Below are positions 8,771 through 36,382 of a stretch of 64,000 nt of DNA, piece by piece (the stretch's first letter is position 1; each line of letters opens with the position of its first letter). This DNA is from Photorhabdus luminescens subsp. luminescens (GTDB lineage: Bacteria > Pseudomonadota > Gammaproteobacteria > Enterobacterales > Enterobacteriaceae), in assembly GCF_001083805.1 (NCBI RefSeq), contig NZ_JXSK01000003.1, positions 124,001-188,000 on the forward strand, given 5' to 3'. Made by a program: the position numbers and the translations under genes. The notes under the pieces are model-generated. The model worked only from the letters and a program-made list of their open reading frames with translations. It was not told the DNA's origin and searched no databases.

Positions 8771-9624
8771 ATTACATACGAATCCATCAATATTTTTACG
8801 ATAAAGGGTGACCAAATCAATACAAGTTCAGATAAAAAGCCCGACATTAAAAGACATTAAGGAAATTTTTTCACCACATGTATCTTGGGTCAATCCTGTA
8901 AAGTAGGCCGCTGGCTTGAAGTGAATTCTCCAGCGGCATCCTGCCAAATCCTGCAACAACTTTATGCCGAATCACTTGAATAACTTATTAAAAGGCAAAA
9001 GATATAGGAAACAAACTTTTTATCGGTGACAAAATAAAAAATAAGATTCGTCATAAATAAATTGAATAATCTCCCATGTAAGATATTAGAGTGCAAAACA
9101 CTCAATACACTATTTTTAAATAAAAAAATTATCTTATAGTATAGATAAAATCATTTTCACTTATTATACGAATATACAAAATTTAATAAATCATTTTCCC
9201 AATATAATAAATCTTGGTCATAAACCTATTAGATAATCGACTACGAAAAAATCAGGATGGAAAAACATCTAATGAATTATTAAAAAAACACGAAATTATT
9301 TACTCACAGTGTAATTATGTTGCAATTATTACTAATTAAAATAATAAAGTCATTATTGTATAGAAATAATCATCTCATTAGATTATATTGCAAAGAAAAA
9401 ACAGGAACCATATTACATATCTGATGAAATAAAATCGCTTATTTTGGCACTTATCAAAATAATTTTTGTTTTTTCTAAAATACATATAATAATTATTTGT
9501 TATAGTAGTTTTAATGTGTTATTTATCTCACTTGTTAAGATTTATTTTTTATTTAACACATCTTATACGACTTATGTAGTTGAATAGCTAAATGTTATTA
9601 ATTTTTTCTCAAAAGGAGACTATG
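8771..9624. other. long AT-rich intergenic region with a coding-like remnant
   Basis: No intact gene. A perfect 8-base inverted repeat GCCGCTGG/CCAGCGGC (8907-8914, 8930-8937) may end frmB transcription, though no T-run follows. The frame ending at about 8982 reads as plausible protein (VGRWLEVNSPAASC, then QILQQLYAESLE) and is probably the tail of a lost gene. From 9000 on the DNA is strongly AT-rich; GTAATTATGTTGCAATTAT at 9311-9329 resembles the repeat upstream of frmA. Confidence 0.35.
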
Positions 9625-9954
9625 ATGACATTGCAAGAAATTGGCAAGATGAGTCTTAAAAATTCAGGTGGATTTGTTGCTAGAATCCAATTCAGTTATA
9701 TGGATGGCGATGGTGAAAAGCATTTAAGTAAACAAGGTAATAATATTACTCTTGGATTAACAGATACTGTTGACCCAGGCGATCTTGGCGTTCCTGATGG
9801 CTCAATAGTTTTTATGCATGTATTTGTAGTATGGGGAAATGATAATGAAGCCCGTAAAGCTTTTTTATACAAAAAAGGAAGCCAAATACTTGCTAGCTAC
9901 GATATCAGTGGTACGACATTAAGCAATGATCTTGGTTTAATCGATATTTCGTAA
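9625..9954 (+). CDS. small beta-rich protein of unknown function
   Basis: 109 residues (two adjacent ATGs at 9622 and 9625; AAAGGAG spacing favours the second). The sequence alternates short polar and hydrophobic strands (VARIQFSYMDGDGEKHL, ITLGLTDTVDPGDLGV, SIVFMHVFVVWGNDNEARKA), without cysteine, signal peptide or catalytic motif, which suggests a compact beta-sandwich such as small lectin-like or aegerolysin-like secreted proteins. That comparison is by impression only. It is isolated, with about 850 bases of AT-rich DNA upstream and an ERIC directly behind the stop codon. I do not recognise the family. Confidence 0.6.
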   Translation: MTLQEIGKMSLKNSGGFVARIQFSYMDGDGEKHLSKQGNNITLGLTDTVDPGDLGVPDGSIVFMHVFVVWGNDNEARKAFLYKKGSQILASYDISGTTLSNDLGLIDIS

Positions 9955-10429: not shown

Positions 10430-11863
10430 TTGAGCGATTTTGTATTCTCGAAAAACCATCTGAATCCTTTTCAATCTCAGTTGGAGGAACTTGATGCAAA
10501 ATTAGTTCCTATTGAGGGAGAGGTTCCTTCAAAGTTAAAAGGTACCTTCTTTAGAATTGGTCCCGGTCGCCTGCACAGGGGAGACGAATATTATAATCAT
10601 CCATTTGATGGGGATGGGATGATATTTAAAGTAACGTTCAGTGATAATGGGGTATTCTATAGAAACAGACATGTATTAACAAAAGAATACTTAAGAGAGG
10701 AAAAAGCGCAAAGGTTACTGTATCGCTCAGTTGGAACCGTCCCCAGAAAAATAAAATTCAGGATGAGATTTTTCATTATTAAAAATCCAGCAAATACAAA
10801 TATTGTGTATCATTCTCATAAACTTCTGGCGTTATGGGAAGGAGGGATGCCACATTTAATTAATCCGGTAACTCTTGAGACAATTTCAAAATTTGATTTT
10901 TCTGGAAAGCTAAGAACACGATTTTCTTTCCTCCCCAAACTTAACCTTTGTGAAGCACCATTTACAGCACATCCTAAAAAAATACCAGATGATGATAATT
11001 TATATGGATTTGGTGTGACATATGGTATTGGTTCTAAATTGACGCTATACAAAATAGACAGTGCCGGCGACCTGACGGTTATACACAATATTCGGTTTAA
11101 GAAAAGGTACTTAATTCACGATTTCATAGTGACAAAAAATTACTTTTTATTTTTTTTAGGTGGACCGCATATAAAGCTTACGTTAAGGAATATAATTGGC
11201 AATGAAAGCATCCTTGCATCCATGAATTCACGTGAAAGTGAAGATGGCAGGATTCTTTTAGTTTCAAGAAAATGCCATGATGCGAAATTCTATGATGCAG
11301 TTCCTGGATTTATTTTTCACTTCGTAAATGGCTATGAAAATGCCAATGGGAATGTGATTTTTGATGCCTCATTTTGGAGGTCATTCCCAGTATTTACACA
11401 CAATATATTTGAAAATAATAGTTCAGAGCTTTGTCGTTTTACTTTATACACTGCATCCGGGAATGTCGATAAAGAAATTTTATTCAGGGGAAATACTGAT
11501 TTTCCAGCCATAAACCCTATAGTTTGTGGTAGAAAGCACAGATATGCCTGGTTCGTTTGCTGGGGGGATTCTGAAAGTGAAGAGAGATCAATAATTAAAT
11601 TTGATTTTTTTAACAAGAGTGTATTAAGCCACAGTTTTGATAATGATTTGCCTGAAGAGCCTGTTTTTGTCGCCAAAGAGGATTCTGTTAAAGAAGATGA
11701 TGGTTGGCTTATTTTCAAGGTTTATGTCGAAAAATTACACTGTACAGATATCGTGGTTTTAAATGCTGATGATCTCTCAATGGCGTGCAGATTACGTTTG
11801 CCGCACCATATCCCAATGGGAATGCATCACTGCTGGATAAATGAAGTTATGCTAGAAACCTAA
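10430..11863 (+). CDS. carotenoid cleavage oxygenase (RPE65/CCD family)
   Basis: 477 residues. Four iron-binding histidines expected for the seven-bladed propeller family are visible: His181 (FTAHPKK), His230 (LIHDFIVT), His297 (FIFHFVNGYE) and His466 (IPMGMHHCW). Family signatures HPFDGDGMI near residue 57 and LALWEGGMP near 133 are also present. Members split conjugated double bonds of carotenoids with O2 to give aldehydes such as retinal or apocarotenals; the cleavage position cannot be read from sequence. The start is TTG 10430 behind AGAGGTGAAGG. It heads the crt cluster, 75 bases before crtE, and is more AT-rich than the crt genes, suggesting a separate origin. No signal peptide, so cytosolic or membrane-associated. 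Confidence 0.9.
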   Translation: MSDFVFSKNHLNPFQSQLEELDAKLVPIEGEVPSKLKGTFFRIGPGRLHRGDEYYNHPFDGDGMIFKVTFSDNGVFYRNRHVLTKEYLREEKAQRLLYRSVGTVPRKIKFRMRFFIIKNPANTNIVYHSHKLLALWEGGMPHLINPVTLETISKFDFSGKLRTRFSFLPKLNLCEAPFTAHPKKIPDDDNLYGFGVTYGIGSKLTLYKIDSAGDLTVIHNIRFKKRYLIHDFIVTKNYFLFFLGGPHIKLTLRNIIGNESILASMNSRESEDGRILLVSRKCHDAKFYDAVPGFIFHFVNGYENANGNVIFDASFWRSFPVFTHNIFENNSSELCRFTLYTASGNVDKEILFRGNTDFPAINPIVCGRKHRYAWFVCWGDSESEERSIIKFDFFNKSVLSHSFDNDLPEEPVFVAKEDSVKEDDGWLIFKVYVEKLHCTDIVVLNADDLSMACRLRLPHHIPMGMHHCWINEVMLET

Positions 11864-11938
11864 AACCAATAGCAATATAAACTAGTCATTGTTTTTCAAA
11901 TGATTAGTGAAATTATTTACGTGATTCGGGAAATATTT

Positions 11939-12841
11939 ATGAACGTTAATACTGCATGCGTTATGAATTACGAAGAGACATTACTGGAGCTACAGAGTGC
12001 GCTACAACAGCACCTAGAACTGGTACTTCCTTCAGGAGTCCCGGATGACAAAGTCTGCGCAGCCATGCGAGAAAGTACACTGGTGTCTGGAAAACGTATC
12101 CGCCCCCTCTTATTGCTGCTCATAATCCTGGATCTTGGAGAAAACCCCAAGAAGACTGACTTTCTACAACTGGCATCTGCAATTGAAATAGTGCATGCAG
12201 CCTCATTAATTTTAGACGATCTTCCCTGTATGGATAATGCTGAGCATCGGCGCGGACACCCAGCTATTCATCGACAGTATGGCGAAAGTGTAGCGATCCT
12301 AGCGGCTGTAGCCTTGCTGAGCCGGGCTTTTGGCCTCATTGTAGAAACAAACCTTCCTGAATACGATAAATCTGCTGTTGTCGCCATACTTTCCCATGCA
12401 ATTGGTTTAAACGGTCTTGTCCAGGGGCAGTTTCGCGATCTGAATAATACATTCTGTACTGGCAATTATCATACCATTGCGACCACCAACGATTTAAAAA
12501 CCGGTTTGCTTTTCGACGCAACATTTCAATTAGCGGCAATTGCGGTGAATGCACCTGATATAACTCGTCAGGCATTGCGCCATATATCACAACATTTGGG
12601 GCAAGCGTTTCAATTACTGGATGACTTGAACGATGACCAGAATAATACAGGGAAAGATATGTATCAGGATAAGGAAAAGTTAACAATGGTTACACTGCTC
12701 GGAAAATCTAAAGTGCATGAGCATTTACGCAGGCACATCAGATACATTGATAAATATTTGGCGGTAGTGGGTCGCAGAAATTTAGCCTCACAATATTTTA
12801 TACGATACTGGTTTGATAAAAATATTGCGATGTTTAATTAA
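11939..12841 (+). CDS. crtE: geranylgeranyl diphosphate synthase
   Basis: About 300 residues of the trans-prenyltransferase family. It extends FPP or DMAPP with IPP to the C20 precursor of carotenoids. The first aspartate motif DDLPCMDN with the following RRGHPAIH, and the second motif LLDDLNDD, are intact; GKRIRPLL near the N-terminus binds IPP. Closest in style to Pantoea/Erwinia CrtE, including the C-terminal YFIRYWFDKNI. ATG 11939 is chosen because GGGA lies at useful spacing; the frame is open to 11900 and a further ATG occurs at 11963. First gene of the classical crt order crtE-(idi)-crtY-crtI-crtB. Confidence 0.92.
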   Translation: MNVNTACVMNYEETLLELQSALQQHLELVLPSGVPDDKVCAAMRESTLVSGKRIRPLLLLLIILDLGENPKKTDFLQLASAIEIVHAASLILDDLPCMDNAEHRRGHPAIHRQYGESVAILAAVALLSRAFGLIVETNLPEYDKSAVVAILSHAIGLNGLVQGQFRDLNNTFCTGNYHTIATTNDLKTGLLFDATFQLAAIAVNAPDITRQALRHISQHLGQAFQLLDDLNDDQNNTGKDMYQDKEKLTMVTLLGKSKVHEHLRRHIRYIDKYLAVVGRRNLASQYFIRYWFDKNIAMFN

Positions 12842-12863
12842 TTTCAGCCTTGGCACGAAAAAA

Positions 12864-13118
12864 ATGAAAAAGATCGATCACACTCATCGTAAAAATGAGC
12901 ATCTGGATATTATATCCCATTCTCCTCAAACTAAGGCCCAAGTAAGAACGGGGTTTGCTGAGTGGCGATTTTCGCATTGTGCTCATGCGATTAATCACCA
13001 TCTTGCAGAGGCAGCCAAAATTCGTGGCGAACGTGGGTTTAATTATGCTCTGCGTACAGCCGTTCTGTTACCAACGATTGCCGGAGGATCAACAAAATGG
13101 TGTACGACTGGGATCTGA
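12864..13118 (+). pseudogene. idi: type 2 isopentenyl-diphosphate isomerase, internally deleted remnant
   Basis: The frame begins MKKIDHTHRKNEHLDI and continues to GFAEWRFSHCA, which is the N-terminal signature of FMN-dependent type 2 IPP isomerase (Fni/Idi-2) as found in Pantoea crt clusters. It then jumps directly to INHHLAEAAK, which in the intact enzyme follows after roughly 40 more residues, and ends after about 35 unplaced residues. The FMN-binding barrel is missing. About 85 codons remain of some 350, so it cannot be functional. Its end overlaps the crtY start, and its last bases supply the GGAGG of crtY, which may be why this end persists. Isomerase activity must come from another locus or be limiting. 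Confidence 0.75.
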
Positions 13119-14272
13119 TTTTGGTGGGAGGAGGATTAGCCAACGGACTGATCGCAATGCGTCTTCAGCAGTGTAAACCACATTTGAGAGTGTTGCTTAT
13201 TGAAAACACAGAAACAATAGGAGGCAATCACACGTGGTCATTTCATCAACACGATCTCACTGAGGCGGAACATGGATGGATAGCACCGCTGATCACCTAT
13301 CGCTGGTCAGGTTACGACGTAATCTTTCCAGCATGTCAACGCACATTGCCACATTCATATTTCAGTGTCACGTCCCAACACTTTGCAAACATACTCCATG
13401 CATATTTGGGCGAGCGTATACAGACTCGTTTATTGGTACAAGAGCTGACTCCACAGAAAGTTTACTTACAGGACGGCTCAGCTCTAAGCGCAGGCGCAGT
13501 CATTGATGGGAGAGGCTGGCGACCGGGGCCATTTATGGGGTGTGGTACCCAGGCATTTTTTGGTCAGGAATGGGAACTGGAAGAAGCGCACTCTTTAACC
13601 CACCCGATTTTAATGGATACCAGCGTGGGACAGAATACAGGTTATCGATTTGTCTATGTCCTACCGTTTTCCTCAACTCGTCTGCTGATAGAGGACACTC
13701 ACTACGTTGATCGGGGACCACCGGATAAGACCTTGTCACAGGCAACTATCGCAGAGTACGCGAAGAGGCATGGCTGGAAACTGGGTAAACTAATTCGAGA
13801 AGAGAGCGGTTGTCTCCCGATTACACTTACAGGGGATTTTACCTCTTTCTGGGCACAACTAGCAGGCCAGCCCACCTGCGGGTTACGCGCAGCTTTGTTT
13901 CACCCCACAACAGGCTACTCTCTGCCACACGCCGTTCGGTTAGCAGATCGTATCGTTGCTCTGCCAGAGCTTACCGATACCTCCTTATTCATTACCCTCA
14001 GGGATTACGCACGACAGCAGTGGCAACACCAGCGCTTTTTCCGTCTTCTAAATCGCATGCTCTTCCTAGCTGGGGAACCACAACAACGTTGGAAAGTGAT
14101 GCAACGTTTTTATCAACTTTCCCCAAATCTGATTGCGCGTTTTTATGCAGAACAACTTAATTCCGTCGATAAGGCCCGGATTCTCATAGGTAAACCGCCG
14201 GTGCCGATCAAGGGCGCCCTAAAGGCAATGTTTAAACAACACAAGAAGCTTCAGGGTTTTTATCATGATTAA
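13097..14272 (+). CDS. crtY: lycopene beta-cyclase
   Basis: 391 residues, ATG 13097 after CCGGAGGATC. It cyclises both ends of lycopene to give beta-carotene. Landmarks: N-terminal dinucleotide fold LILVGGGLANGLIA, GGNHTWSFH, IDGRGW, GYRFVYVLPFSSTRLLIEDTHY and FHPTTGYSLP, all characteristic of proteobacterial CrtY flavoproteins. Length is typical. The stop overlaps crtI by 8 bases, giving translational coupling. The gene shows no damage. Confidence 0.95.
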   Translation: MVYDWDLILVGGGLANGLIAMRLQQCKPHLRVLLIENTETIGGNHTWSFHQHDLTEAEHGWIAPLITYRWSGYDVIFPACQRTLPHSYFSVTSQHFANILHAYLGERIQTRLLVQELTPQKVYLQDGSALSAGAVIDGRGWRPGPFMGCGTQAFFGQEWELEEAHSLTHPILMDTSVGQNTGYRFVYVLPFSSTRLLIEDTHYVDRGPPDKTLSQATIAEYAKRHGWKLGKLIREESGCLPITLTGDFTSFWAQLAGQPTCGLRAALFHPTTGYSLPHAVRLADRIVALPELTDTSLFITLRDYARQQWQHQRFFRLLNRMLFLAGEPQQRWKVMQRFYQLSPNLIARFYAEQLNSVDKARILIGKPPVPIKGALKAMFKQHKKLQGFYHD

Positions 14273-15746
14273 AGCGCTGGTAATTGGTGCTGGTTTTGGT
14301 GGGCTGGCGCTGGCAATAAGGCTCCAGTCCGCGGGGATTCCGACATCTATTTTGGAACAACGGGATAAACCAGGTGGACGCGCCTATGTTTATCAGGAAC
14401 AGGGGTTCACCTTTGATGCCGGCCCCACCGTAATCACCGCTCCCAATGCCATTGAAGAATTGTTCACACAGGCTGGCAAACGTATGGCTGATTACGTCGA
14501 TTTACTTCCCGTACGCCCTTTTTATCGGCTCTGTTGGGAGTCGGGCAAGATATTTGATTACGACAATGACCAGCAACATCTGGAAGCACAAATCCATACG
14601 TTCAACCCAGGTGATGTTAACGGGTATCGACGCTTTCTGGACTATTCCCGGGAGGTCTTTGATAAAGGCTACCTGAAACTTGGGACAGTGCCCTTCCTCT
14701 CTTTTCGCGACATGCTGAGTGCGGCGCCACAGTTGGTACGTCTACACGCATGGCGTAGTGTTTATAGTCAGGTGGCACGCTATATCAAGGATGAGAGTCT
14801 GCGCCAGGCATTTTCATTTCACTCGCTACTGATAGGCGGCAACCCCTTTGCTGTATCTTCTATCTATACTTTGATCCACGCACTGGAACGAGAATGGGGA
14901 GTCTGGTTTCCGCGTGGAGGAACCAGCGCCTTGGTCGAGGCAATGGTGAAATTGTTTACTGATATTGGTGGAAAAATTGAGCTTAATGCAAAGGTAAAAC
15001 GCCTCACCACTCATGGTAATCGGATCACAGGCGTGCAATTGACTGATGGACGAAATATGACATGTGACGTTGTGGCCTCAAATGCCGATGTCGTGCATAC
15101 CTATAAGCATCTGTTGGGTCAGCATCCGGTCGGAATAACCCGCGCCCGAACACTGGCGCGTAAACGAATGAGCAACTCACTGTTCGTGCTTTATTTCGGT
15201 CTGAACCACCATCATGCTCAATTAGCCCATCATACAGTTTGCTTTGGCCCGCGCTATAAGGAACTCATTGAAGATATTTTTTATCATGACCGACTGGCGG
15301 AGGATTTTTCGCTCTATCTCCATGCCCCCTGTGTTACTGATCCATCCCTTGCGCCCCCGGGATGCGCAAGTTACTACGTTCTGGCCCCTGTACCACACTT
15401 GGGGACAGCTAATCTCAACTGGGATATAGAGGGGCCGCGCTTACGCGACCATATTTTCGCGTATCTGGAAAAGTACTATATGCCCGGTCTGCTCAAGCAA
15501 TTAGTCGTTCATCGTATCTTTACCCCATTTGATTTTCGTGACCAGCTAAATGCCCATCTAGGTTCGGCCTTCTCCTTTGAACCGTTGCTGACACAAAGCG
15601 CCTGGTTCCGACCACACAATCGGGACAACCGCATTGATAATCTGTACCTCGTCGGCGCAGGCACACATCCTGGAGCGGGTATTCCCGGCGTAATTGGATC
15701 AGCAAAAACCACAGCCACATTGATGTTAGGGGATATAGCCAGATGA
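14265..15746 (+). CDS. crtI: phytoene desaturase (lycopene-forming)
   Basis: 493 residues, the usual CrtI size. FAD-binding ALVIGAGFGGLALAIRL at the N-terminus, GGRAYVYQEQGFTFDAGPTVI, and the C-terminal carotenoid-dehydrogenase signature NLYLVGAGTHPGAGIPGV are intact. It carries out four desaturations from phytoene to lycopene at the membrane surface. Overlaps crtY by 8 bases and crtB by 4, so the three form a tight operon. Confidence 0.96.
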   Translation: MIKALVIGAGFGGLALAIRLQSAGIPTSILEQRDKPGGRAYVYQEQGFTFDAGPTVITAPNAIEELFTQAGKRMADYVDLLPVRPFYRLCWESGKIFDYDNDQQHLEAQIHTFNPGDVNGYRRFLDYSREVFDKGYLKLGTVPFLSFRDMLSAAPQLVRLHAWRSVYSQVARYIKDESLRQAFSFHSLLIGGNPFAVSSIYTLIHALEREWGVWFPRGGTSALVEAMVKLFTDIGGKIELNAKVKRLTTHGNRITGVQLTDGRNMTCDVVASNADVVHTYKHLLGQHPVGITRARTLARKRMSNSLFVLYFGLNHHHAQLAHHTVCFGPRYKELIEDIFYHDRLAEDFSLYLHAPCVTDPSLAPPGCASYYVLAPVPHLGTANLNWDIEGPRLRDHIFAYLEKYYMPGLLKQLVVHRIFTPFDFRDQLNAHLGSAFSFEPLLTQSAWFRPHNRDNRIDNLYLVGAGTHPGAGIPGVIGSAKTTATLMLGDIAR

Positions 15747-16732
15747 ATCCCGCGTTGCTTAAACACGTTACTCAGATAATGGAGCAAGGCTCAAAAAGTT
15801 TTGCCAGTGTCACCCGACTTTTCGATACGGCAACACGGCACAGCACAATGATGTTGTACGCTTGGTGTCGTTATTGTGATGATATAATAGACGGGCAAGA
15901 GCTGGGGAGACAAATAAGCAATGTTGATAAGTATGACGCCCGTGAGAAACTTGAAATGCTGCAACATCTGACGAGGCAGGCTTATGACGGCTTGCCGATG
16001 ACCGAACCTGCTTTTGCAGCTTTTCAGACAGTCGCTCTGAGTCATGAAATCCCTCAGCAACAGGCCTTCGAACATCTGGAGGGATTCGCGATGGATGTAC
16101 GCGGCGATCCTTGCAGAACGTTAGATGACACTCTGAGATATTGTTACCATGTCGCGGGAGTAGTTGGGCTGATGATGGCAAAGGTGATGGGGGTTCGCGA
16201 GGCGAGTGTGCTGGATCGGGCCTGTGATCTAGGAATTGCTTTTCAGTTAACTAACATTGCTCGGGATATTATAGAGGACGCGAAGGTCAAGCGTTGCTAC
16301 CTTCCGCTAGAATGGCTTTACCAAGAAGGGCTAATGCCGGACACACTTATTTATACCGAAAACCGTCCTGCGCTAGCTCGGGTGGCATCCCAATTGATTG
16401 TGGAAGCAGAGTCTTATTATACCTCTGCTTTGACAGGGCTTGCTGGTTTACCTTTGCGTTCAGCCTGGGTCATAGCTTCTGCTCATAGTATCTATCGGGA
16501 AATCGGCATTAAGGTGCAGCAAGCAGGGGTACAAGCCTGGGAGTGCAGACAAAGAACTAACCGTAGAGAGAAAGTTACCTTATTAATGGCCGGCGCAATG
16601 CAGGCGCTTATGTCTCGGATGGCAATAATAACGCCTCGCGATCCCAAATTGTGGCAGCGGCCTCATGAAAAATTAACTCCACTTTGTTGTGTGGCACCAC
16701 CCTGTATTTCGTCATCTGAACAGAGATGTTAA
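15743..16732 (+). CDS. crtB: phytoene synthase
   Basis: 329 residues. Head-to-head condensation of two GGPP molecules to phytoene. The aspartate-rich motifs YCDDIIDG (near residue 45) and NIARDIIEDA (near 172) are intact, as is FAMDVRGDP. It starts inside the crtI stop (ATGA). In Pantoea-type clusters crtZ (beta-carotene hydroxylase) follows convergently; here no trace of crtZ is seen, and the next gene belongs to a retron system, so the pathway is predicted to end at beta-carotene or its cleavage products. Confidence 0.95.
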   Translation: MNPALLKHVTQIMEQGSKSFASVTRLFDTATRHSTMMLYAWCRYCDDIIDGQELGRQISNVDKYDAREKLEMLQHLTRQAYDGLPMTEPAFAAFQTVALSHEIPQQQAFEHLEGFAMDVRGDPCRTLDDTLRYCYHVAGVVGLMMAKVMGVREASVLDRACDLGIAFQLTNIARDIIEDAKVKRCYLPLEWLYQEGLMPDTLIYTENRPALARVASQLIVEAESYYTSALTGLAGLPLRSAWVIASAHSIYREIGIKVQQAGVQAWECRQRTNRREKVTLLMAGAMQALMSRMAIITPRDPKLWQRPHEKLTPLCCVAPPCISSSEQRC

Positions 16733-16853: not shown

Positions 16854-17504
16854 TTATATAAATTGTTTGTTATACAGCCATGCATGCCTCAGGGCAGTAC
16901 TAAACTCTTCAGTCTTAAGTTCCTCCAGTTGCTCGTGAAGCAACAGAGTCCATTCTTCTTCCTCAAGCTCCTCAAAGGTCAAGTAAAAATATTCAACTTC
17001 TTTTATCACATTTTGCAGAGCAGTCCTTCTTCTACCGAATAATTTTGCATCACCATTCAAATTAAAAACACGAATGGTTTCCTCTGCCTTCTTTAATGCT
17101 TGACCTTGAAGTCCGGATGCAGGTATTACCCTTCCTGTCGTAAGAAACAACAAAAAATCGTCAGGGTTCTCTACGTCAGGCTTGATAAGCTGGTTTACAT
17201 CGTATGCCCCTGCACCATGATCTTTGTAAATCCCGCACCGTTCCCAGCCACCTGATTTTGAACTGTCCCCACAGGAACCAAACAAATTTTCCCAATCAAA
17301 TGTCAGAGCAGAAAACTTCCCCCTAGGCCTGAAATGTTCAATATGTTTGCGATTCAATCGACATTCACAGTATGCGCAGAACGCACCCTGCATTTCTTCA
17401 AGATGTGGCCAAATCTCCGTTTGGTCTATTTCCATCCAAGTATTCTGACCCGCTTTAAACTGGTTAAGTACATGCGGCTTGGGCGGACGAGTTAATGCTT
17501 TCAT
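16854..17504 (-). CDS. ptuB: PtuB-like HNH nuclease of the retron system
   Basis: 216 residues. HNH-type metal site: [20 protein letters not shown] near residues 43-62, with Cys43, Cys46 and the IEHFRP histidine, then [11 protein letters not shown]. This matches the TIGR02646-like HNH family, which is the effector of Septu and of Ec78-type retrons. The start overlaps the stop of the ATPase gene (ATGA). Last gene of the retron operon; believed to cleave tRNA or DNA once the RT-msDNA guard is disturbed (known for Ec78-like systems, inferred here). Confidence 0.85.
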
Positions 17505-19159
17505 CCTTGCTTATCCTTCTCCGATTTTAATTTATTGATTTTATTTTTCATTTGATGGACTCGAATGAGGCTGTCAGCTTTCTTAAGTTCAGGACTATCA
17601 TTGCCAAAATGCTTTTTTATGTTGTCGTAAAGTGTACGAGTTTGCACGCTAATTTCCTCACCATCGGCAATCAAGGATTGCTCAAAGTTACCGACCCAAT
17701 GGGATTCTTTGATCCTGGGAGGAGTGGAAAATACGCCCATCACTTGTTCGAGAATATGCACATTTTCGCTGCCTTTGGTTTGCATCTGTGGTAATTGTAG
17801 GAACTGCATGCCACTTTCATCAATATCAGCAAACTCACGGATGCATCGTCTTTCAATCGTGGATAGCACTATTGGGCTGTGCGTAGTAATGATAAACTGG
17901 ATATTCGGGAAAACCTTTTGAAGGTCAGTGATCACATCCTGCTGCCATTTCGGATGGAGATGAAGCTCAATTTCATCAATTAATACAATGCCACTCCCTT
18001 CTAGAGGGTTTTTCAGGAGAGGATTAAGCATCACCATACGGCGCGCAAGGTCAGCAATCAATCCAAGAAAAACACGTTGTCCATCTGATAGCTGCTCAAT
18101 AGTCACGTCCTGACCATCATTAGTGACCTTCACAACATCTATTCCTGACTCCGTCTCAACCCAAATATGACTGATGCTTGGTACGACCAAGGTAATGGCT
18201 TGTTCCACGATTTTTTTCTGAAGAGATTCAGCCAGTAGCCTCTTTGACAGGGCTAAATTATATTTCGCGGTTGCCGATTCCAGCTTACTTTTCATATCTT
18301 CAAGCAATGGCGCCACTGAAACCATACCATTATCAACGGACTTCTGTAGATCACAAACCTGTTGTCTAAGCGTCTCAATTGACGAAGAAACATCCCCGGC
18401 TGTTCGCTTATGAAGATAAACGTACCATTCAATAAAGTGGTCGAAGCGGCCTGCGCCTGTTAGCGAATGATTATAGGCATCAAACCGGTCTTCCCTTCTT
18501 TCATTACTATCCTTTTGAAACTTAGTGAATGGGTGCGACCGTTCAACCGTGTACAGCGCGAATGTGGGTAAATTTATTGTCCTGGCCTCATTCACAACAC
18601 GCCAGACATCAGCCAAATCTTTTGCAGGTTTAATCCGGCTATCCCTTCGTTCTGAAACACCAAGAGCCGACCGGGATAACCGAAGCGCTAAGCTCTTCAG
18701 CCCTTTCCCAAAGAAAAAATTCGTGGTGATATCTGCATATTTGTTCACAGAATCATTCCTGATATCTGTAAATTCACTCAGACGCTGACCACTACCATCT
18801 TCTTTCAGTATGTTTGCACTAAACCAGCTTAGTGATTTAGCAATAGCCGAAAGAATGCTCGTTTTACCTTTTCCATTATTGCCAATAATAACCGTCAGAT
18901 CTTTTTCAAGGTTCACTTTCAGATGTGAAAAACGACGAAAATCACTTAAATCCAGCTGGCGAAGGAACAAGGGGTTAGTAGGTCGAAATGTCTCTGAGCT
19001 ATCTATGTAACCACCTTGCAAATAGTCCCAACAAAGTTCCAACCATTCGTCAGCTTGTTTTTCATCCAATTCACGCTCAACTTGCAAACTACGCTGATAA
19101 AGTTCGAATGCAGACAGTAAATTTCCACCTTTTGCTTTTCTTTCTAATTGTCTGGTCAT
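17501..19159 (-). CDS. ptuA: PtuA-like ABC-type ATPase of the retron system
   Basis: 552 residues. A 65-residue leader is followed by [15 protein letters not shown] and Walker [10 protein letters not shown] at about 93-101, a coiled-coil middle, the signature-like [12 protein letters not shown], Walker [18 protein letters not shown] and the switch ITTHSP. This is the RecF/SMC-like ATPase arrangement of PtuA. It overlaps the RT stop (TAATG) and ptuB (ATGA), so all three are coupled. In Ec78 retrons PtuA and PtuB form the toxic complex held inactive by RT and msDNA. Confidence 0.88.
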
Positions 19160-20091
19160 TACGGTCTCCTCAAACGTTCCATTAACTCTATAGAATATTT
19201 ATTGTTCACCCGACCAATGAAGTCGGGTTCAATATGGTTCGCAAACGCCAACAACCCTCTCAGGTAAGCTATATCCGCCTCATCCAGTAAGCCATATTTA
19301 TACTGATTAATGAGATGTTTAATGAACCGTTTTCTCTCGCGCCCTAACGACAGATTTCCTTCATTGCTCAGTGTAACGCCTGTTACGTGACGATTATGAG
19401 CTTTAGAGGAAGATACTGTTTTACCGTGGTTTATCTTGAGTGCTTTGTTGAATATTTTTTTTAACAAAGCTTCAATCATAACCGGAACCGTTCTCAACAC
19501 ATCACGCATGTCGCAAGAAAAGGTCAGGTCATCAGCGTAACGGGTATAAGTAATACCTAAGTTTTGACAATCTTCGCTGAGTTTTCGATCGAATTCATAG
19601 AGACAGAAGTTGGAAATGTCAGGTGAGGATGGCGCACCGACACTCAACATCAATCTTTTCTTGCTTTTTTTTACAGGTTGCCAAAAGAGAATGCGTTCAA
19701 CATAGGGTCTATCCTGAACTGAAAACTTTGGTGTCTCGATCGATGACGTATCAATGCATCGCCAAAAAATATCAGGAGTGATCGAATTGAAGAAATCTTC
19801 TAGATCAGTTTTAAGTAAGTACGGGTTGTTAACGTGAGCCAAGGCGTTGTCACGTATACTTTTACCTTTCCTGTATGCCATAGACGTTTCGTGCACAGGG
19901 AAGGAATAGAGTTGTAGGAATGCTCTTTGAAGTGCTTTAAGCTCCTTTGCGGGCTGGGCGATTATCCTGAATCCAGTGGTACGTTTTGGAATTCTGTAGA
20001 CTTTGTACTTTCTGGGGGCATTTTCCAGAAACGACCTAACATCAGCTTCACTCCGATGCAGTACCGTCGCTAACCCATTGATAATCGACAT
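19159..20091 (-). CDS. retron reverse transcriptase (Ec78-like)
   Basis: 310 residues from ATG 20091 ([18 protein letters not shown]). The frame stays open to 20208 but that part is the msd hairpin region and is not used. Retron-specific features: NALAH (residues 82-86, the NAxxH motif of region X), the catalytic YADD at 185-188, [13 protein letters not shown], and RHVTGVTLS holding the VTG triplet of region Y. It synthesises msDNA from the RNA coded directly upstream. A strong hairpin (20108-20132) lies between the RNA and the start codon. First gene of RT-ptuA-ptuB. Confidence 0.93.
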
Positions 20092-20136
20092 AGCTATACC
20101 TATAAACCGCCCGGCACATGTAACCTGCCGGGCATG

Positions 20137-20280
20137 ACTCTTTACTAGAGGAAGCGAAAGTGTCGCAACCCGAGGGAGGAACGAGAGAGGGTTGCGACAC
20201 TTTCGCAACCCTTAATGCGTTCAATAAGTTAGAGTCTGGCTAATCACCCGACTAGACGTAAACGTCCAACGCTAAAGAGT
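20137..20280 (-). ncRNA. retron msr-msd RNA (Ec78-like)
   Basis: Read on the minus strand. The a1 strand ACTCTTTA (20280-20273) pairs perfectly with a2 TAAAGAGT (20144-20137). The a1 end runs into TTTAGCG, matching the conserved TTAGC context whose G carries the 2'-5' branch. The msr follows with small stems, then the msd: an 18-base perfect stem GCGAAAGTGTCGCAACCC pairing across 20154-20171 and 20189-20206 with a 17-base loop. The position just before the RT gene and the polarity are as expected. The exact 5' end of the transcript and of the msDNA are not determinable here. Confidence 0.88.
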
Positions 20281-21477: not shown

Positions 21478-22509
21478 ATGAGCACACCTGTTTATCACCC
21501 TGGACCAGAGCAGCCGACACCGGAACAACGACTACTTTTATTCAATGATGAGAAGTGGGAGATGTTTATAGAACAGTGCGCTAGACAGTTGCAAGTAGAG
21601 GGAAAATATACTCATGTGCATCGACTTGGTGGTGCGGGTGATAAAGGCAGAGACGTGTGCGGCTATTTACATCCATTGCCTGAGGAGTCTACTTGGGACC
21701 TATATCAGGGGAAATACTATGCAGGAACGCTATCTCCAAGCGCTTTTGCACCTGATCTTGCAAAATTCTTATGGTACGTCTTCTCGGAGGAGTACACGCG
21801 CCCTTTAAATTACTATATATGTGCACTCAAAGTAGGCCCCTCACTGCTTGATTACACGCTAAATCCTGAAAGGTTTAAAGCTTGGATGCTTAAGGAATGG
21901 AAAGATAAGTCCGGAAATTTCGTAACATTTAAAAAAGAGCTCACACCAGAATTAAATAAATTTATCCAAAACTTCCCTTTTGAGGTTATCAAGGTCAAGC
22001 CTTCAGCTGATCTGTTAGAAATACACTCTCGATCATGCAAGCACTGGGAGATGTTTGGCGTGTTACCCGCGCGACAGCCCGATCCAATTATGCCAGAAAA
22101 TCCTGACACCAATGAGCATCAATTCGTCAAAGCACTTCTTGATGTTTATCAGGAGTTAGATCAAATTGAACTCTCCCATCTGACTGACATTCCTAAAAAA
22201 TATCAAAAACATTTTAAAGCACAGCGAATGCTTTTTTACAGCGCGGAAGGTCTTAACCGTTTTAGCAGAGACAAGCTTCCAGGAGCATTTGATGATTTGA
22301 AGAATCAAGTCGAGGTAGGGATAGGTAGCTCCTTAAATTATCCCCATGCAAATGGCCTCACAAGACTAAAAGAAGTTTTAGATACTGCAAACGTATTACA
22401 GGTAACCGCTAACCCTTTAAGTGGACGATTACAAGCAGGCGACCTCGGAGGAACCTGCCATCATCTTGCGAATCAGGGTAGAGTAAAATGGGTGGATGAA
22501 GATGAGTGA
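21478..22509 (+). CDS. ABC-3C system effector with restriction-endonuclease-like N-terminus
   Basis: 343 residues. The N-terminal part shows RLGGAGDKGRDVCGYL followed by DLYQGKYY, giving an Asp59 ... Gln77-x-Lys79 pattern typical of Mrr-like PD-(D/E)xK nucleases. The C-terminal half (from about residue 200) looks like the all-alpha domain that ABC-3C effectors share. First gene of a three-gene unit with the middle component and an SMC-like ATPase; it overlaps the next gene by 14 bases. ABC-3C systems (Krishnan, Aravind and colleagues) are predicted conflict systems in which the ATPase activates the effector; inferred job here is cutting invader DNA. Confidence 0.7.
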   Translation: MSTPVYHPGPEQPTPEQRLLLFNDEKWEMFIEQCARQLQVEGKYTHVHRLGGAGDKGRDVCGYLHPLPEESTWDLYQGKYYAGTLSPSAFAPDLAKFLWYVFSEEYTRPLNYYICALKVGPSLLDYTLNPERFKAWMLKEWKDKSGNFVTFKKELTPELNKFIQNFPFEVIKVKPSADLLEIHSRSCKHWEMFGVLPARQPDPIMPENPDTNEHQFVKALLDVYQELDQIELSHLTDIPKKYQKHFKAQRMLFYSAEGLNRFSRDKLPGAFDDLKNQVEVGIGSSLNYPHANGLTRLKEVLDTANVLQVTANPLSGRLQAGDLGGTCHHLANQGRVKWVDEDE

Positions 22510-22978
22510 TGTATTTAATACTCCATTTGAGCTTGGACTCAGAATGGTTCATTTGTTGATGGCTCTTTATCCTAGAAAAGTTGATTTACAACGCCTAGTT
22601 TATTTCGATTATGCCGCTATCTACTCGGCAGATCTAAACGGTCCAGAAAGCCTACATACGCCAGTCCCCCTGCGAGGTGGAGAATATGCCAGCAGGAGAG
22701 AGATAATTGAAGCAGGGTTATATTTGATGGCGCAACGCTCATTCATTGATGTCCAGGCTGATAATGGTGGTATTAGTTTCCAGCTTGGTGAGAATGGTCC
22801 AGCCTTAGTTGGTCTGATTGGTGGAGAATACTCGCGAGAATTATACAAGCGCTGTGAATGGGTAGCTTCTGCGCTAGGTGATATGGATGAAAAAAATCTC
22901 GAAAAAGTATTTGGAATGCGCGGTACCTTATGGGGAGCAGAGTTCCTTCCGGCAACAAACACAGGAACTGCTCTATGA
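22496..22978 (+). CDS. ABC-3C middle component
   Basis: 160 residues, small helical protein without catalytic motif (FNTPFELGLRMVHLLMALYPRKVDLQRLVYFDYAAIYSADL). The size, the LVYFDYAAIYSADL-like segment and the position between effector and ATPase fit the 'middle component' of ABC-3C systems, thought to link the other two subunits. It overlaps the effector gene by 14 bases and its TGA overlaps the ATG of the ATPase gene. A second in-frame ATG at 22502 is an alternative start. Confidence 0.65.
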   Translation: MKMSDVFNTPFELGLRMVHLLMALYPRKVDLQRLVYFDYAAIYSADLNGPESLHTPVPLRGGEYASRREIIEAGLYLMAQRSFIDVQADNGGISFQLGENGPALVGLIGGEYSRELYKRCEWVASALGDMDEKNLEKVFGMRGTLWGAEFLPATNTGTAL

Positions 22979-24780
22979 CAATTAGTATTCATGAACTGGT
23001 GGTGACTGGGCCGGGTAAAGTTCCAGCAAAACTTACACTAAATGGAAAATCCCATTTAGTTTTTGGTCCCACTGATACCGGGAAATCGTACATTGTCGAG
23101 TGTTTTAGATACTGCTTTGGTGGAGGTCAAAAGCCTAAAGGTGTTGGCTTCTCGGATGGATATACTCGGGCAGCCGTTCAAATTTCACTCTCCAATGGCG
23201 ACTGTTTCACATTATTTCGAGACCTACTTAATGGTGAAGAAGCTGTGTATGAGGGCTTTCATGAGAATCCTCCTCAAAGTGAGATTGCACTTGAAAAAAA
23301 TATAAGTGAGCTGCTTCAGACATGGTGTGGGGCTGCGGGAGTAAAGATACTGACTAAGTCAGGAAAGCTTGGCAATTTGACGGCCGGGGATCTTCGTCGC
23401 GTTAGCATATTTGATGAGATTGAAACATTGGACAATGTTTCATTTGAAGGTAAAGATACCAATCTAAAAACTCGAAATAAGTCTGCCCTAGCTATGATCC
23501 TAAGCGGTTCAGATGATTCCGAAATGGTTCTTCCTGCATCAACAAACGATCGGAATATTGCAAAAGGACATACAGAGGCAATTAATGAACAGATCAACAG
23601 CTTACTTGCAGACATACCTGATGGCCTATCACTGAAAGATGCTCAGGAAAGTTTACTTAAAGTGACAGCTGAGATTGAGATCATCAACCGTCATATAAGA
23701 AGTCATGCCTCCGAACTTGCAGAGCTTAGAAATACCCGCTTGATAATTGATAAAGAAAGGCGACAACTATCTCAAGAGTTAGCGGCATTAAAAGAGGCAG
23801 AAAATAGATTCCAGTTGCTTGATAAAAAATATGTAAGCGATCAACAACGACTGCAAGCTATATCTACAGCCGCTTCAATCGCTGATAGTTTTGAAATTCG
23901 ACCATGTCCTCTTTGCTATACAGATATCCAACACCAGTTACGTCACAAAGATCAAGATACTCAAACACCTATGCTTCGCTTGGCTGCACATGCTGAGAAT
24001 GAAAAAATCTCAGGATTACGTGAAGGATTGAAGGAGGCTTTAAATGATGTTCTCATTAGCCTTGATGAAATATCTAACGCACTGAAAAAAAATGCGAGAG
24101 AAGCTCTAGAGAATGAGCAAAAGCAAGAAGCACTTCTATCGCCACAAAGTATCAATATAAAGTACGGCTTAGAGACTCTTTCCGATCGTAAAGTAACACT
24201 GTCCATGGCGGTTGCTGATTTATTAAGGGTGGAAAACCTTAAGATTCGATTGGCTGAGATGAAAGAAAAAAGTAAGCGAAAAAAGCAAACTGTTAACAGG
24301 GATATGTCAGAAAGTTCGACTGTGTTATGCAAAAGAGTAAAAGCACTATTAGATACTTGGGGAGTCCCTAGCGTGGATTCTGTTTATTTTGATGATAGCA
24401 TTTCTGACATTGATATTAATCAGCGTAAGCGTACATCTTATGGAAAAGGAAAGAGAGGTATTTTTCTAACAGCTTATATGGTTGCATTAATGGAGAGAGC
24501 TACTGTGAACGGACATCCGCATCTGGGTTTTACCATTATTGACTCTCCAGTGGTGACGTATAAAGATCCCAAGCATGGAACTAACAGTGACGGTGAAGAA
24601 CTTCTTGATGAAAGTGTTAAAGACCGCTTTTATACTTGGTTAGCGAACCGCACCGAACCGGGACAAATTCTCATTTTAGAGAATGAAGAGCCGAATTTAG
24701 AGACCTTAAATACATTGAATTTTACTGAATTTGTTGGTCCCAAAGGTGTCCCTGGCCGGTTAGGTTTTTTCCCCGTATAA
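22975..24780 (+). CDS. ABC-3C SMC/Rad50-like ATPase
   Basis: 601 residues from ATG 22975, which overlaps the previous stop (ATGA); a start at 22930 would overlap far into the neighbour. Walker A GPTDTGKS at residues 31-38, long coiled coils (about 200-300 and 345-440) separated by a CPLC motif (RPCPLCYTDIQ) that resembles a Rad50 zinc hook, and a Walker B-like LGFTIIDSPVV followed by KDP near the C-terminus. It is probably a DNA- or complex-sensing ATPase that controls the nuclease encoded two genes upstream. Confidence 0.75.
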   Translation: MTISIHELVVTGPGKVPAKLTLNGKSHLVFGPTDTGKSYIVECFRYCFGGGQKPKGVGFSDGYTRAAVQISLSNGDCFTLFRDLLNGEEAVYEGFHENPPQSEIALEKNISELLQTWCGAAGVKILTKSGKLGNLTAGDLRRVSIFDEIETLDNVSFEGKDTNLKTRNKSALAMILSGSDDSEMVLPASTNDRNIAKGHTEAINEQINSLLADIPDGLSLKDAQESLLKVTAEIEIINRHIRSHASELAELRNTRLIIDKERRQLSQELAALKEAENRFQLLDKKYVSDQQRLQAISTAASIADSFEIRPCPLCYTDIQHQLRHKDQDTQTPMLRLAAHAENEKISGLREGLKEALNDVLISLDEISNALKKNAREALENEQKQEALLSPQSINIKYGLETLSDRKVTLSMAVADLLRVENLKIRLAEMKEKSKRKKQTVNRDMSESSTVLCKRVKALLDTWGVPSVDSVYFDDSISDIDINQRKRTSYGKGKRGIFLTAYMVALMERATVNGHPHLGFTIIDSPVVTYKDPKHGTNSDGEELLDESVKDRFYTWLANRTEPGQILILENEEPNLETLNTLNFTEFVGPKGVPGRLGFFPV

Positions 24781-25208: not shown

Positions 25209-28200
25209 TCAACATATAAAAAACTCAATCTCTTGTTCATTAAATTCCCTAAAGTTATCTCCAGCTGTAAGCAGAATGGCTTTACATAAGTAACAGCTCT
25301 TATGCTCTGTTTCACTTGAGCTATGCCATTCTTCAATTCTTTCCTTGCTTACTGCGGTATAAGAGCCACAAAAAGAACGAATCCCTCTGGGATGAATAGG
25401 TTGCCAATAGTTGTACCAGAACGATGAAAAACCAACTTTAGAACCATCGACAGAGTAAATAAACAAACCATCGGAAGATGAACCGACAATCTTTTTACCA
25501 TCAATGGTACATTTGGGAATGTAGAACCCTCGTGATTCGAGATCGGAGTGCCAGTGTCCATATCTCATAAATGGATACGAAGTGCCAGCCATTGTAGGAG
25601 CTTTGGGCATCTGACTATCACCAAACTCATAAGACAGCTCCTTATCCAAAAGATTACCAACGGCCAAACAACCGGAACGCTCTTTTACCTGCATGTCAGG
25701 CGTCAGCTCAATTTCAGTGCTCACCTTTACAACAGTCAGATCAATCCAGTTATTGTCATCAATCTTTATGGGTAATGAAAATGCTAAAAGGTCATTACTG
25801 TCATCTGTTTGTGTAAAGTTGGCTAATCCTTCTTTAACATAGCTGATTAAATTAGCTTCATTCGGGGAATTATTACCATTCCAAACCGGTAACCATTTAG
25901 GTTTTTGAGGGCGAAGCTCCATATACGCAGGTTCGATAGGTAGTGCTGGTATGGATAAATATTTCGCGTAAGAATCCGGCATGCCGTAAAATTCTTTGGC
26001 TAGGTCTATTGTCCTAAGATATGCAGAACGGCCTCGATGACTTGCTTGCGTATAGAATTGCCCAGTAGATCTTTGCCTATCGCTGCTAAAAAAGTAATCA
26101 ATGGTTGTTGCTGTTGATGGTTGATATTCGAATGTATTGTTCCACTCAGTTTGATAATGATCTGTAAAGGGTAAACGGGTTCTTTTTGTTTCTTTTTTCA
26201 GCCAAGAATAGTACACACGAGGAACATGGCTGCCCTGATAATACTCGAATCTATTATTGTCATGACCCAAAATAATAAAAGGAGAAAATGGATAAGCATA
26301 CTCCCCGAATTCTACTGAGGTCGATAGCAATTCCGATAGTATTAGATCTGACAGTACGGACCTTGCCCTTATGTAGTGCCCCAGATCATTTGGGCAGACA
26401 TAACCCTTAGACTTCGCAATAAAAAATACACACAATACTTCTACGCACTCAGACTCTTGCTTCCTACCTGCTAAGTCTTCCTTTAATAATTCTTCAACTC
26501 TTGGATGCTGAGCTATTAAAAGTAGTGAAAGCTGATCTACTACCCGCAACTTTACAGAGGGTATAGGCAGCTTAAGCCTTGAAACTAACGTCTTGAGCAT
26601 TGCTTCCTCGAGAGAGTCATCTTGACGCCAATCCCAGACCGGTCTTGCAAGTTGAAGATTGCGGACGCTTTCTTCTAAGCTTGTAACCATCTCTAACGTG
26701 AGCTTAAGCGCCTCATCTTTCCTGCCACCATGAGAAAGCAAAAAAACCAGCTTATCATTCGGAATAATTAAGTTGCCAAACTTATCTTTCCAATTATCCG
26801 GTTGTGATGTTGTTAATTTAATAAATTCGTCAATTTTTTTAGGGTATTGCTCTGCAACCATCTTAAGCCGATTGAGGCTATTTTCTGAACGCTCATACCA
26901 ATCAGACCACCCTCCCATTGCCTTGTGAGCCGCAACCAAAAGATCAAAGGCTTTCGTTTTACCGTCTAATTTTTTAACACTGAAAAAAAGAAGATCTAAC
27001 AAGTATCGTTTATCATCAAAACGATCAATAAACTTCGACACCTGTGGAATTAGCAGTTGTAATAAATCAGGTTCCTTACCTTGGGTACACCAATATGTGT
27101 ACCAGGTTTTCCAAAATTCACTGGTACTATATTTTTCTTTGAGCAATACAGTCAGTTCTTCGAACTTTTCAGGCGGATAATCCGATGGCTGCAACGAAAT
27201 TTTTTCATCAAGTTCATTAGCTGACGGTTGCTTTTCTTCAACCATATTTTGAACATTAATATCAAGAAGGTTCTCTATTTCATCGGCAATACAAATGGCA
27301 TGAGGTTCTCCTTTCTCAATCTTTTCTCTGAGCACTTGGTAGCAGCTAGAGTGCAAACCTGTAAGATATAAATATTTTGTAATCGGCGAAGCAAAATCAC
27401 ACCTTTTAAGCAACCTAGAAATTGTCTCTTCAGCATAATACCATTCGCCATCGCTGAGCTCCTGCTCATAAACTGAAGCAGCTGTTTGCGGGTTTAATTT
27501 TGCTAATAATGAAGATATTGAATGCTTAGAGTGCCTAGTTTCATCCCCATCAGTAAAGTCGGATATATTGAAAACTATCGGTGATATTCGTTCTAATATT
27601 TCCAAGGCAGAACTTGGATCAGATTCAGAAAGGTATCCCACAGCTTTCAATACATCAAAGATGGTGGGGTCTTTGTGATGTCCGTAACCAAGCACAAAGT
27701 CCCATGTCTTTCTCAAACATTTTTCAAAAAGAGCTAATTTATCATGTTGAAATGCTATTTGAGCTAGCTCAAGATAAGCATTAGAATTTTCAATTGTTTG
27801 CTCTAACTCATTTAATTGTCGATTATCTTCAAGCTCGATAAGTAGCTCAGCGGCATCATCGTCTAATAACTTAAGACCTGCGTCCTTATACCATAGCCTT
27901 AGCCAGTCAACTCTAAATAAACCATCGTTAACTGTTTGCTTTAGTTCATCACGCGAAATTTCAGATTTGGTTGTTATCAGGTGACAATCGGCTGCAATTT
28001 CAATCCAATCACGCTTTAAAGCTATGTCGGCTCTCCGTGTTTCCCATTGGATCTCATCTAATATTGGAACACGCGGAAACATCGCACAAACTACGTCAAA
28101 GTTCAGTGTATTTCCTGCGATAAGTTCATTTGCGACTAAATCTGCCAACTCATTGAGTAAATCATAATGAGCTGACACATTCGCTCTATCTGAGGTTGCA

Positions 28201-30977: not shown

Positions 30978-31050
30978 AAGACTCGAAAACACTCCTTATT
31001 CAATAAATCATCCTCTCCACCCCAAAAGTACACCTCATCAACAGTTAACA

Positions 31051-31527
31051 TTATGCTCTTCCTGAAGGAGGCATTTCTTTGTCAAAAGGCCGTAATATTC
31101 GAGCTACCTCAGTATTTGAAGGCAGGTCTGCCCCTTTTGGCGGAGTTTTATCAACGCTAGCCATCTGTATGCCTTTCTGCCGCACGTGGAAGGCGATTTG
31201 CTGCCAGCGGCGCAGCCATTGAGCTTCTTTTCGCTTGTAGGCCTCTAGCTCCGCTTTAAGGCGATCCACCTCTACCTGAAGCTCCTCCGATTCTTTGGTT
31301 GCCTGCGCTTTGGTTTTCACGAGACCACCCGACAGTGCTTGTTTAGCATTGTCATAAGCGGCTTTAATTTCAGACTTGGCTTGGAGTGACTGACGACTAA
31401 AGCCAAAGCGTTCTTCTAGAACAGCCCAGGTGAGTTTTGATCCAAGCTCGCCCAGCGCCCAGCGGTCCAAATCGGCAACGATTGTATTGATGTCACTGTC
31501 GGACATACGTCTGAAGCGCTTAACCAT
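31051..31527 (-). CDS. gmtX: GmtX/TnpC-like accessory protein of the recombinase operon
   Basis: 158 residues. An N-terminal helical DNA-binding-like part (INTIVADLDRWALGELGSKLTWAVLEERFGFSR) is followed by a coiled coil at about residues 70-110 (KESEELQVEVDRLKAELEAYKRKE). Size, form and last position behind three tyrosine recombinases match TnpC of Tn554-like elements and the third protein of gamma-mobile-trio systems. It has no catalytic motif; probable role is assisting strand exchange or target choice. It overlaps the preceding gene by 8 bases. The symbol is assigned from context. Confidence 0.55.
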   Translation of the reverse strand: MVKRFRRMSDSDINTIVADLDRWALGELGSKLTWAVLEERFGFSRQSLQAKSEIKAAYDNAKQALSGGLVKTKAQATKESEELQVEVDRLKAELEAYKRKEAQWLRRWQQIAFHVRQKGIQMASVDKTPPKGADLPSNTEVARILRPFDKEMPPSGRA

Positions 31528-35105: not shown

Positions 35106-35110
35106 TTTGG

Positions 35111-36283: not shown

Positions 36284-36382
36284 TGCACCACCCTTATTGA
36301 CAAAATAAGAGTAGCTACAAACTTCCATCTTTACAACTTTTCAAATTATACGACTTTATAAAAGTACAAAGTCACATAAAAC

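Follow-up and report, generated by a model that had tools for sequence, protein, structure and literature searches.

A probable Photorhabdus β-carotene operon headed by a carotenoid-type cleavage oxygenase, with retinal as a candidate product

A cleavage oxygenase heads a carotenoid operon in Photorhabdus

Gene content, conserved gene order, and structural modeling point to a β-carotene operon in Photorhabdus luminescens that is headed by a carotenoid-type cleavage oxygenase, and we consider it probable that this enzyme cleaves β-carotene, its single most likely reaction being a cut at the central 15,15' bond that would yield retinal. The locus occupies positions 10430 to 16732 of a 64,000-nucleotide stretch of contig NZ_JXSK01000003.1 (positions 124,001 to 188,000; here called the window) from a 5.46-Mb genome. 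An apocarotenoid is the likely end product of the pathway, and retinal is our best guess at its identity from homology. An earlier note, made from the letters of this stretch, had proposed such an operon, with a cleaved carotenoid as product and a signal or an opsin chromophore as possible roles; as a whole, that interpretation is partly supported.

All features of the locus lie on the forward strand and would be transcribed as an operon. The oxygenase gene (10430 to 11863; 477 amino acids) starts with TTG preceded by GAGGTGA, an arrangement identical in all seven carrier relatives, and is followed after a 75-bp gap by a crtE-type prenyl diphosphate synthase gene (11939 to 12841), whose open reading frame (ORF) opens at 11900 and likely starts at the ATG at 11939. 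Beyond a remnant of idi (12864 to 13118), the gene for type 2 isopentenyl diphosphate (IPP) isomerase, come crtY, encoding lycopene beta-cyclase (13097 to 14272; TIGR01789, 476.5 bits), crtI, encoding phytoene desaturase (14265 to 15746; TIGR02734, 760.9 bits), and crtB, encoding phytoene synthase (15743 to 16732; NF042419, 503 bits). These last three products exceed the curated cut-offs for CrtY, the CrtI family, and CrtB, and the Pfam scores of the window proteins are far beyond chance (RPE65, 371.7 bits; Lycopene_cycl, 271.3 bits; SQS_PSY, 215.5 bits). ORFs and profile scores agree with the earlier description of an oxygenase with all four iron-binding histidines heading crtE, crtY, crtI, and crtB. 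The tight overlap that was also described applies to crtY and crtI, which share 8 bp, and to crtI and crtB, which share 4 bp; it does not extend to the oxygenase and crtE or to crtE and crtY, between which the idi remnant lies.

CrtE is a polyprenyl synthetase by Pfam (PF00348, 140.4 bits, over the cut-off). All of its NCBIfam matches fall below cut-off, farnesyl diphosphate (FPP) synthase ranking first (180.5 versus 275 bits) and CrtE second (142.3 versus 460 bits), so that its presumed chain length, giving geranylgeranyl diphosphate (GGPP), is drawn from the operon and from ~53% identity to the gene at the crtE position of a Pantoea crt operon. The gene is 90 to 93% identical across seven relatives, one of which (L017, genome G009) is matched only to about residue 165. 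At the other end of the locus, crtB stops after codon 308 in six of seven relatives; the window and L016 have lost this stop, which leaves a tail of 21 codons in the window (16667 to 16732). A promoter and terminator scan of the locus gave counts inside the shuffle range and is hence uninformative.

Oxygenase and crtB co-occur across the genus

Among 12 genomes of the genus, the oxygenase gene is present in eight, one copy (G008) being in two broken pieces; crtB is present in the same eight, and both genes are absent from the other four. The oxygenase gene lies directly upstream of crtE in every carrier. Since the two genes are jointly present or jointly absent in 12 of 12 genomes and this placement recurs in 8 of 8, we rejected the explanation that they are chance neighbors. 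The distance from fghA to ssb is 0.2 kb in one noncarrier (L151) and 1.5 kb in another (L148), with ssb outside the stretch examined in the other two. Among carriers, ssb follows crtB inside the stretch examined in five of eight and does not in two; the separation in the window is ~20 kb.

Intact oxygenase copies are under purifying selection. The mean ratio of nonsynonymous to synonymous substitution rates (dN/dS) is 0.21 for the seven intact copies, compared with 0.18 for CrtE, 0.12 for both CrtY and CrtI, 0.17 for CrtB, and 0.11 for the neighbor FghA. Internal stops in crtY, crtI, and crtB were found in none of seven relatives. The host also fits its earlier description as an insect-associated enterobacterium: LuxC matches over the full profile, presumably a mark of Photorhabdus, occur in all 12 genus genomes, and matches are weak in G012, which represents the one other genus compared.

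Overlooked in the earlier note was the idi relic between crtE and crtY, in which 84 of 343 codons are left and which by itself matches no family. Several internal deletions have preserved the reading frame, and by eye they end at short direct repeats. The gene is intact in five of the eight carriers (L012, L014, L015, L016, and L020), the L012 copy having 343 codons and scoring 378.8 bits with TIGR02151 (cut-off, 281.3). In the remaining carriers, it is split by a DDE transposase ORF (L013), unmatched (L017), or eroded (window). The relic ORF overlaps the start of crtY and is perhaps retained for translational coupling with it.

As the earlier note had observed for crtZ and crtX, neither gene was detected more widely. 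CrtZ was found in 0 of 11 genus genomes (G011 was not drawn) in a search without an internal positive control; as a check on the query, tblastn finds crtZ next to crt genes in two same-family genomes. Matches to crtX were at chance level (E > 3) in the window and in the relatives' stretches.

The oxygenase is of the carotenoid type

By profile, iron ligands, and predicted fold, the oxygenase is a member of the RPE65/carotenoid cleavage dioxygenase (CCD) superfamily. Its match covers positions 1 to 468 of the 469 in the RPE65 profile (cut-off, 27 bits), and H181, H230, H297, and H466 align with H183, H238, H304, and H484 of the Synechocystis apocarotenoid 15,15'-oxygenase (ACO), positions that we take to be its iron ligands. 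The superfamily has three second-shell glutamates; in the alignment E137 and E410 are retained and the third position is D357. Trp149 of ACO is also retained. The predicted structure (predicted local distance difference test [pLDDT], 87.1; predicted template modeling [pTM] score, 0.89) aligns with ACO at TM scores of 0.88 to 0.89, and ACO, at ~32% identity, is the nearest solved enzyme by both sequence and fold.

Some enzymes of the CCD family cleave stilbenes (PMC8191317), and Photorhabdus makes isopropylstilbene (PMC9177418), which would suit a stilbene cleaver that adjoins crtE by chance. We regard this explanation as very improbable. Clustering with lignostilbene dioxygenases, the placement that the earlier note had named as contrary to its proposal, was rejected by the approximately unbiased test (p-AU, 9.7e-5), and Tyr101 and Lys134 of the stilbene cleavers (PMC8191317) are V101 and W136 here. 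Moreover, the oxygenase gene tracks crtB in 8 of 12 genomes, whereas stl/bkd is reported as core to all Photorhabdus (PMC9177418). An oxygenase of carotenoid, not stilbene, type is supported by these comparisons.

The most similar relative found is linked to a rhodopsin, and none was detected in the Photorhabdus carriers

Outside the genus, homologs of the oxygenase were drawn from the best 80 of 579; no Photorhabdus sequence was returned, such records possibly having been left out. The most similar among these 80 is L032 (37% identity), from a Myxococcales metagenome-assembled genome (MAG; JANXMC010000154.1), where the CCD gene directly follows a Bac_rhodopsin gene (117.8 bits) with a 4-bp overlap (L154, 8571 to 10846). 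No Brp/Blh match was found in this MAG, which may be incomplete. L032 is the 1 locus of the 80 with a rhodopsin match in the flank of the CCD gene, so that a single case ties the closest relative to the supply of retinal; on a Halioglobus contig (L076), a rhodopsin lies ~13 kb away from the CCD.

None of the eight Photorhabdus carriers has a Bac_rhodopsin match in a 16-genome search that was positive in two of the eight non-Photorhabdus genomes, and none has a Brp/Blh match (PF15461) in a search positive for G065. Heliorhodopsin was likewise found in none of the eight, in a search without a positive control. Neither rhodopsin nor Brp/Blh nor crtZ was thus detected in the carriers. The earlier statement that the window holds no rhodopsin gene extends to the whole genome, and, with no Bac_rhodopsin match in 8 of 8 carriers, the suggested use of the product as an opsin chromophore is unsupported and was set aside.

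Retinal is the favored product of a predicted β-carotene pathway

Judged by family membership, CrtE would make GGPP, CrtB would convert it to phytoene, CrtI would desaturate this to lycopene, and CrtY would cyclize lycopene to β-carotene. The nonheme iron(II) oxygenase, with O2, would then split the polyene into one or more apocarotenals. β-Carotene is the sole predicted carotenoid, and no second CCD was found in the source genome, nor any Brp/Blh, which makes β-carotene itself the most likely substrate of the oxygenase. A nearest solved relative that cleaves at 15,15' and a rhodopsin-linked closest relative (among the best 80 of 579) favor central 15,15' cleavage; as the single most likely reaction, it would yield retinal that does not serve a rhodopsin. 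The earlier proposal of a cleaved carotenoid as the end of the pathway gains from the co-occurrence with crtB, the adjacency to crtE, the carotenoid type of the enzyme, and that closest relative.

Several observations weigh against this reading. Among the carotenoid cleavers, the oxygenase has more than one acceptable position: the maximum likelihood tree sets it outside the cyanobacterial ACO clade, yet neither placement within that clade (p-AU, 0.079) nor grouping with NdCCD/NinaB (p-AU, 0.061) is rejected, and a clade with L032 alone is weakly rejected (p-AU, 0.031). The Photorhabdus CCD stands apart on a long branch of its own (1.58 and 1.45 changes per column) and has at most 37% identity to the CCDs found outside the genus, so that transfer of function to it is unsafe. 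D357 replaces a second-shell glutamate, aspartate standing there in 5 of 118 aligned sequences, three of them from Photorhabdus. ACO takes apo-β-carotenals (PMC5133782) and not the predicted C40 carotene, and CrtE scores higher with FPP synthase models than with CrtE models.

The same isolated branch and the unrejected NdCCD/NinaB placement lend themselves to eccentric cleavage of β-carotene (or lycopene), for example at 9',10', 13,14, or 7,8, which would give β-ionone, β-apo-carotenals, or cyclocitral-type volatiles. So do the differing cleavage sites of bacterial CCDs (PMC5133782) and the best NCBIfam match, the 8'-apo-carotenoid 13,14-cleaving dioxygenase model NF052295, although its score is far under the cut-off (171.8 versus 675 bits); there was no ACO model among the matches. 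Set against a nearest solved enzyme that is a 15,15' cleaver and a rhodopsin linkage in the most similar relative, eccentric cleavage seems to us fairly unlikely.

The other adverse observations concern decay. The oxygenase gene is broken in one of the eight carriers (G008, L020), crtE is truncated in another (G009, L017), and idi is whole in only five. In strain TT01, the cluster plu4334-4343 is reported to be transcribed yet partly or wholly untranslated (PMC9177418). Together with the erosion of idi in the window and the absence of the oxygenase and crtB genes from 4 of 12 genomes, these losses would fit a decaying, largely silent operon from which today's strains obtain little or no product, or β-carotene alone. 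The low dN/dS of the intact copies of all five genes (0.12 to 0.21) and the uninterrupted crtY, crtI, and crtB of seven of seven relatives speak against this, and we hold a silent operon to be unlikely.

A more specific version of the retinal proposal is doubtful as a whole: that rhodopsin-free Photorhabdus makes diffusible retinal or a close apocarotenal for its nematode partner or insect host, by means of a Pantoea-type xanthophyll operon redirected through loss of crtZ and crtX and acquisition of a divergent 15,15'-type oxygenase from some other source. Were it true, this thoroughly studied pathogen of insects and symbiont of nematodes would produce retinoids while lacking a photoreceptor, and a clean test would become available of whether bacterial apocarotenoids act among the bacterium, the nematode, and the insect. 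A candidate product would then also exist for a cluster that is common across the genus and whose chemistry is not identified in the available parts of PMC9177418, and enzymology would gain a divergent carotenoid-type CCD.

Origin of the oxygenase and crt genes

A survey of 394 genomes of the order found a CCD in 26 and crtB in 13 (E, 1e-20), and the window oxygenase is 25 to 37% identical to the other 25 CCD hits. Both genes occur together in the window genome and G318 only, the pair in G318 being on different contigs. One contig of G318 (L169, 6430 to 10391) combines a rhodopsin gene with genes resembling crtE, crtI, and crtB, and another carries its CCD. All 102 plasmid matches to the CCD are below 60% identity (best, 32.5% among the matches listed). 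No close bacterial donor of the oxygenase was found among the best 80 of 579 homologs, the 394 order genomes, or the plasmids. Within flanks of up to 9 kb, matches to CrtY, CrtI, and CrtB (E, 1e-6) are missing from all 80 of those CCD loci, and a CrtE-like match is present at two.

The crt genes, for their part, most resemble Pantoea-type genes from the plasmid collection and from two same-family genomes. One of the latter, G378, carries crtE, idi, crtY, crtI, crtB, and a reverse crtZ with no CCD or crtX match within 20 kb, a gene content suggesting a possible loss of crtZ and gain of the oxygenase in Photorhabdus. Guanine-plus-cytosine (GC) content is 35 to 38% over the oxygenase kilobases versus 49 to 50% across crtY-crtI-crtB; since it ranges from 27 to 50% across the window, this contrast is weak evidence for separate sources.

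Neighboring genes

Straight after crtB lies a Retron Ec78-type system (16854 to 20208) encoding PtuB, PtuA, and a reverse transcriptase, each above its NCBIfam cut-off, followed by Lamassu-type LmuA, LmuC, and LmuB genes identified by PADLOC (21478 to 24777); the crtB-ssb interval is thus rich in defense genes. Large genes occupy 25212 to 36328 (1922, 158, 669, 510, and 405 amino acids), with weak PADLOC matches for the first and none for the other four. Upstream of the oxygenase, 9592 to 9951 encodes a 120-amino-acid protein without a Pfam or NCBIfam match, two copies of which lie near the locus in five of the eight carriers.

Comparison with known systems

The pigment cluster of the genus is already catalogued. 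Among terpene clusters specific to Photorhabdus, Shi et al. (2022, PMC9177418) find plu4334-4343 of TT01, presumably the same operon as the window locus, to be the most widespread (81%) and call it silent, and three further papers list a carotenoid cluster from genome mining. The available parts of PMC9177418 do not discuss the cleavage oxygenase, its type, or the decay of idi; those of PMC2889829 do not mention Photorhabdus. We found no report discussing the Photorhabdus oxygenase in our searches of the open-license PMC literature.

The crt genes share the order crtE-...-crtY-crtI-crtB with Pantoea-type operons (L147 and the same-family genomes G378 and G274), at identities of 75 to 76% for CrtI, 59 to 63% for CrtB, and 54 to 56% for CrtY, and G378 likewise has idi between crtE and crtY. 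All of these operons include crtZ, L147 and G274 also have crtX, and none has a CCD in the stretch examined, whereas Photorhabdus has a CCD in front and neither crtZ nor crtX, the genes that mark a zeaxanthin-glucoside operon of the Pantoea type. The Myxococcales pair offers the most similar CCD outside the genus (among the best 80 of 579) but is rhodopsin linked, with no crt match in the stretch examined. Synechocystis ACO (Diox1, PDB 2biw) is the closest solved enzyme in sequence and fold and has the same four histidines and Trp149, yet the two differ at D357, where ACO has glutamate, and in substrate, ACO enzymes cleaving apo-β-carotenals at 15,15' (reviewed in PMC5133782) and the Photorhabdus enzyme being predicted to cleave β-carotene. 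The Fusarium cluster carX-carRA-carB-carO includes a rhodopsin gene, and none was found in the Photorhabdus carriers; as in Photorhabdus, however, its CCD gene is clustered with β-carotene genes, and the output in Fusarium is retinal (PMC5133782).

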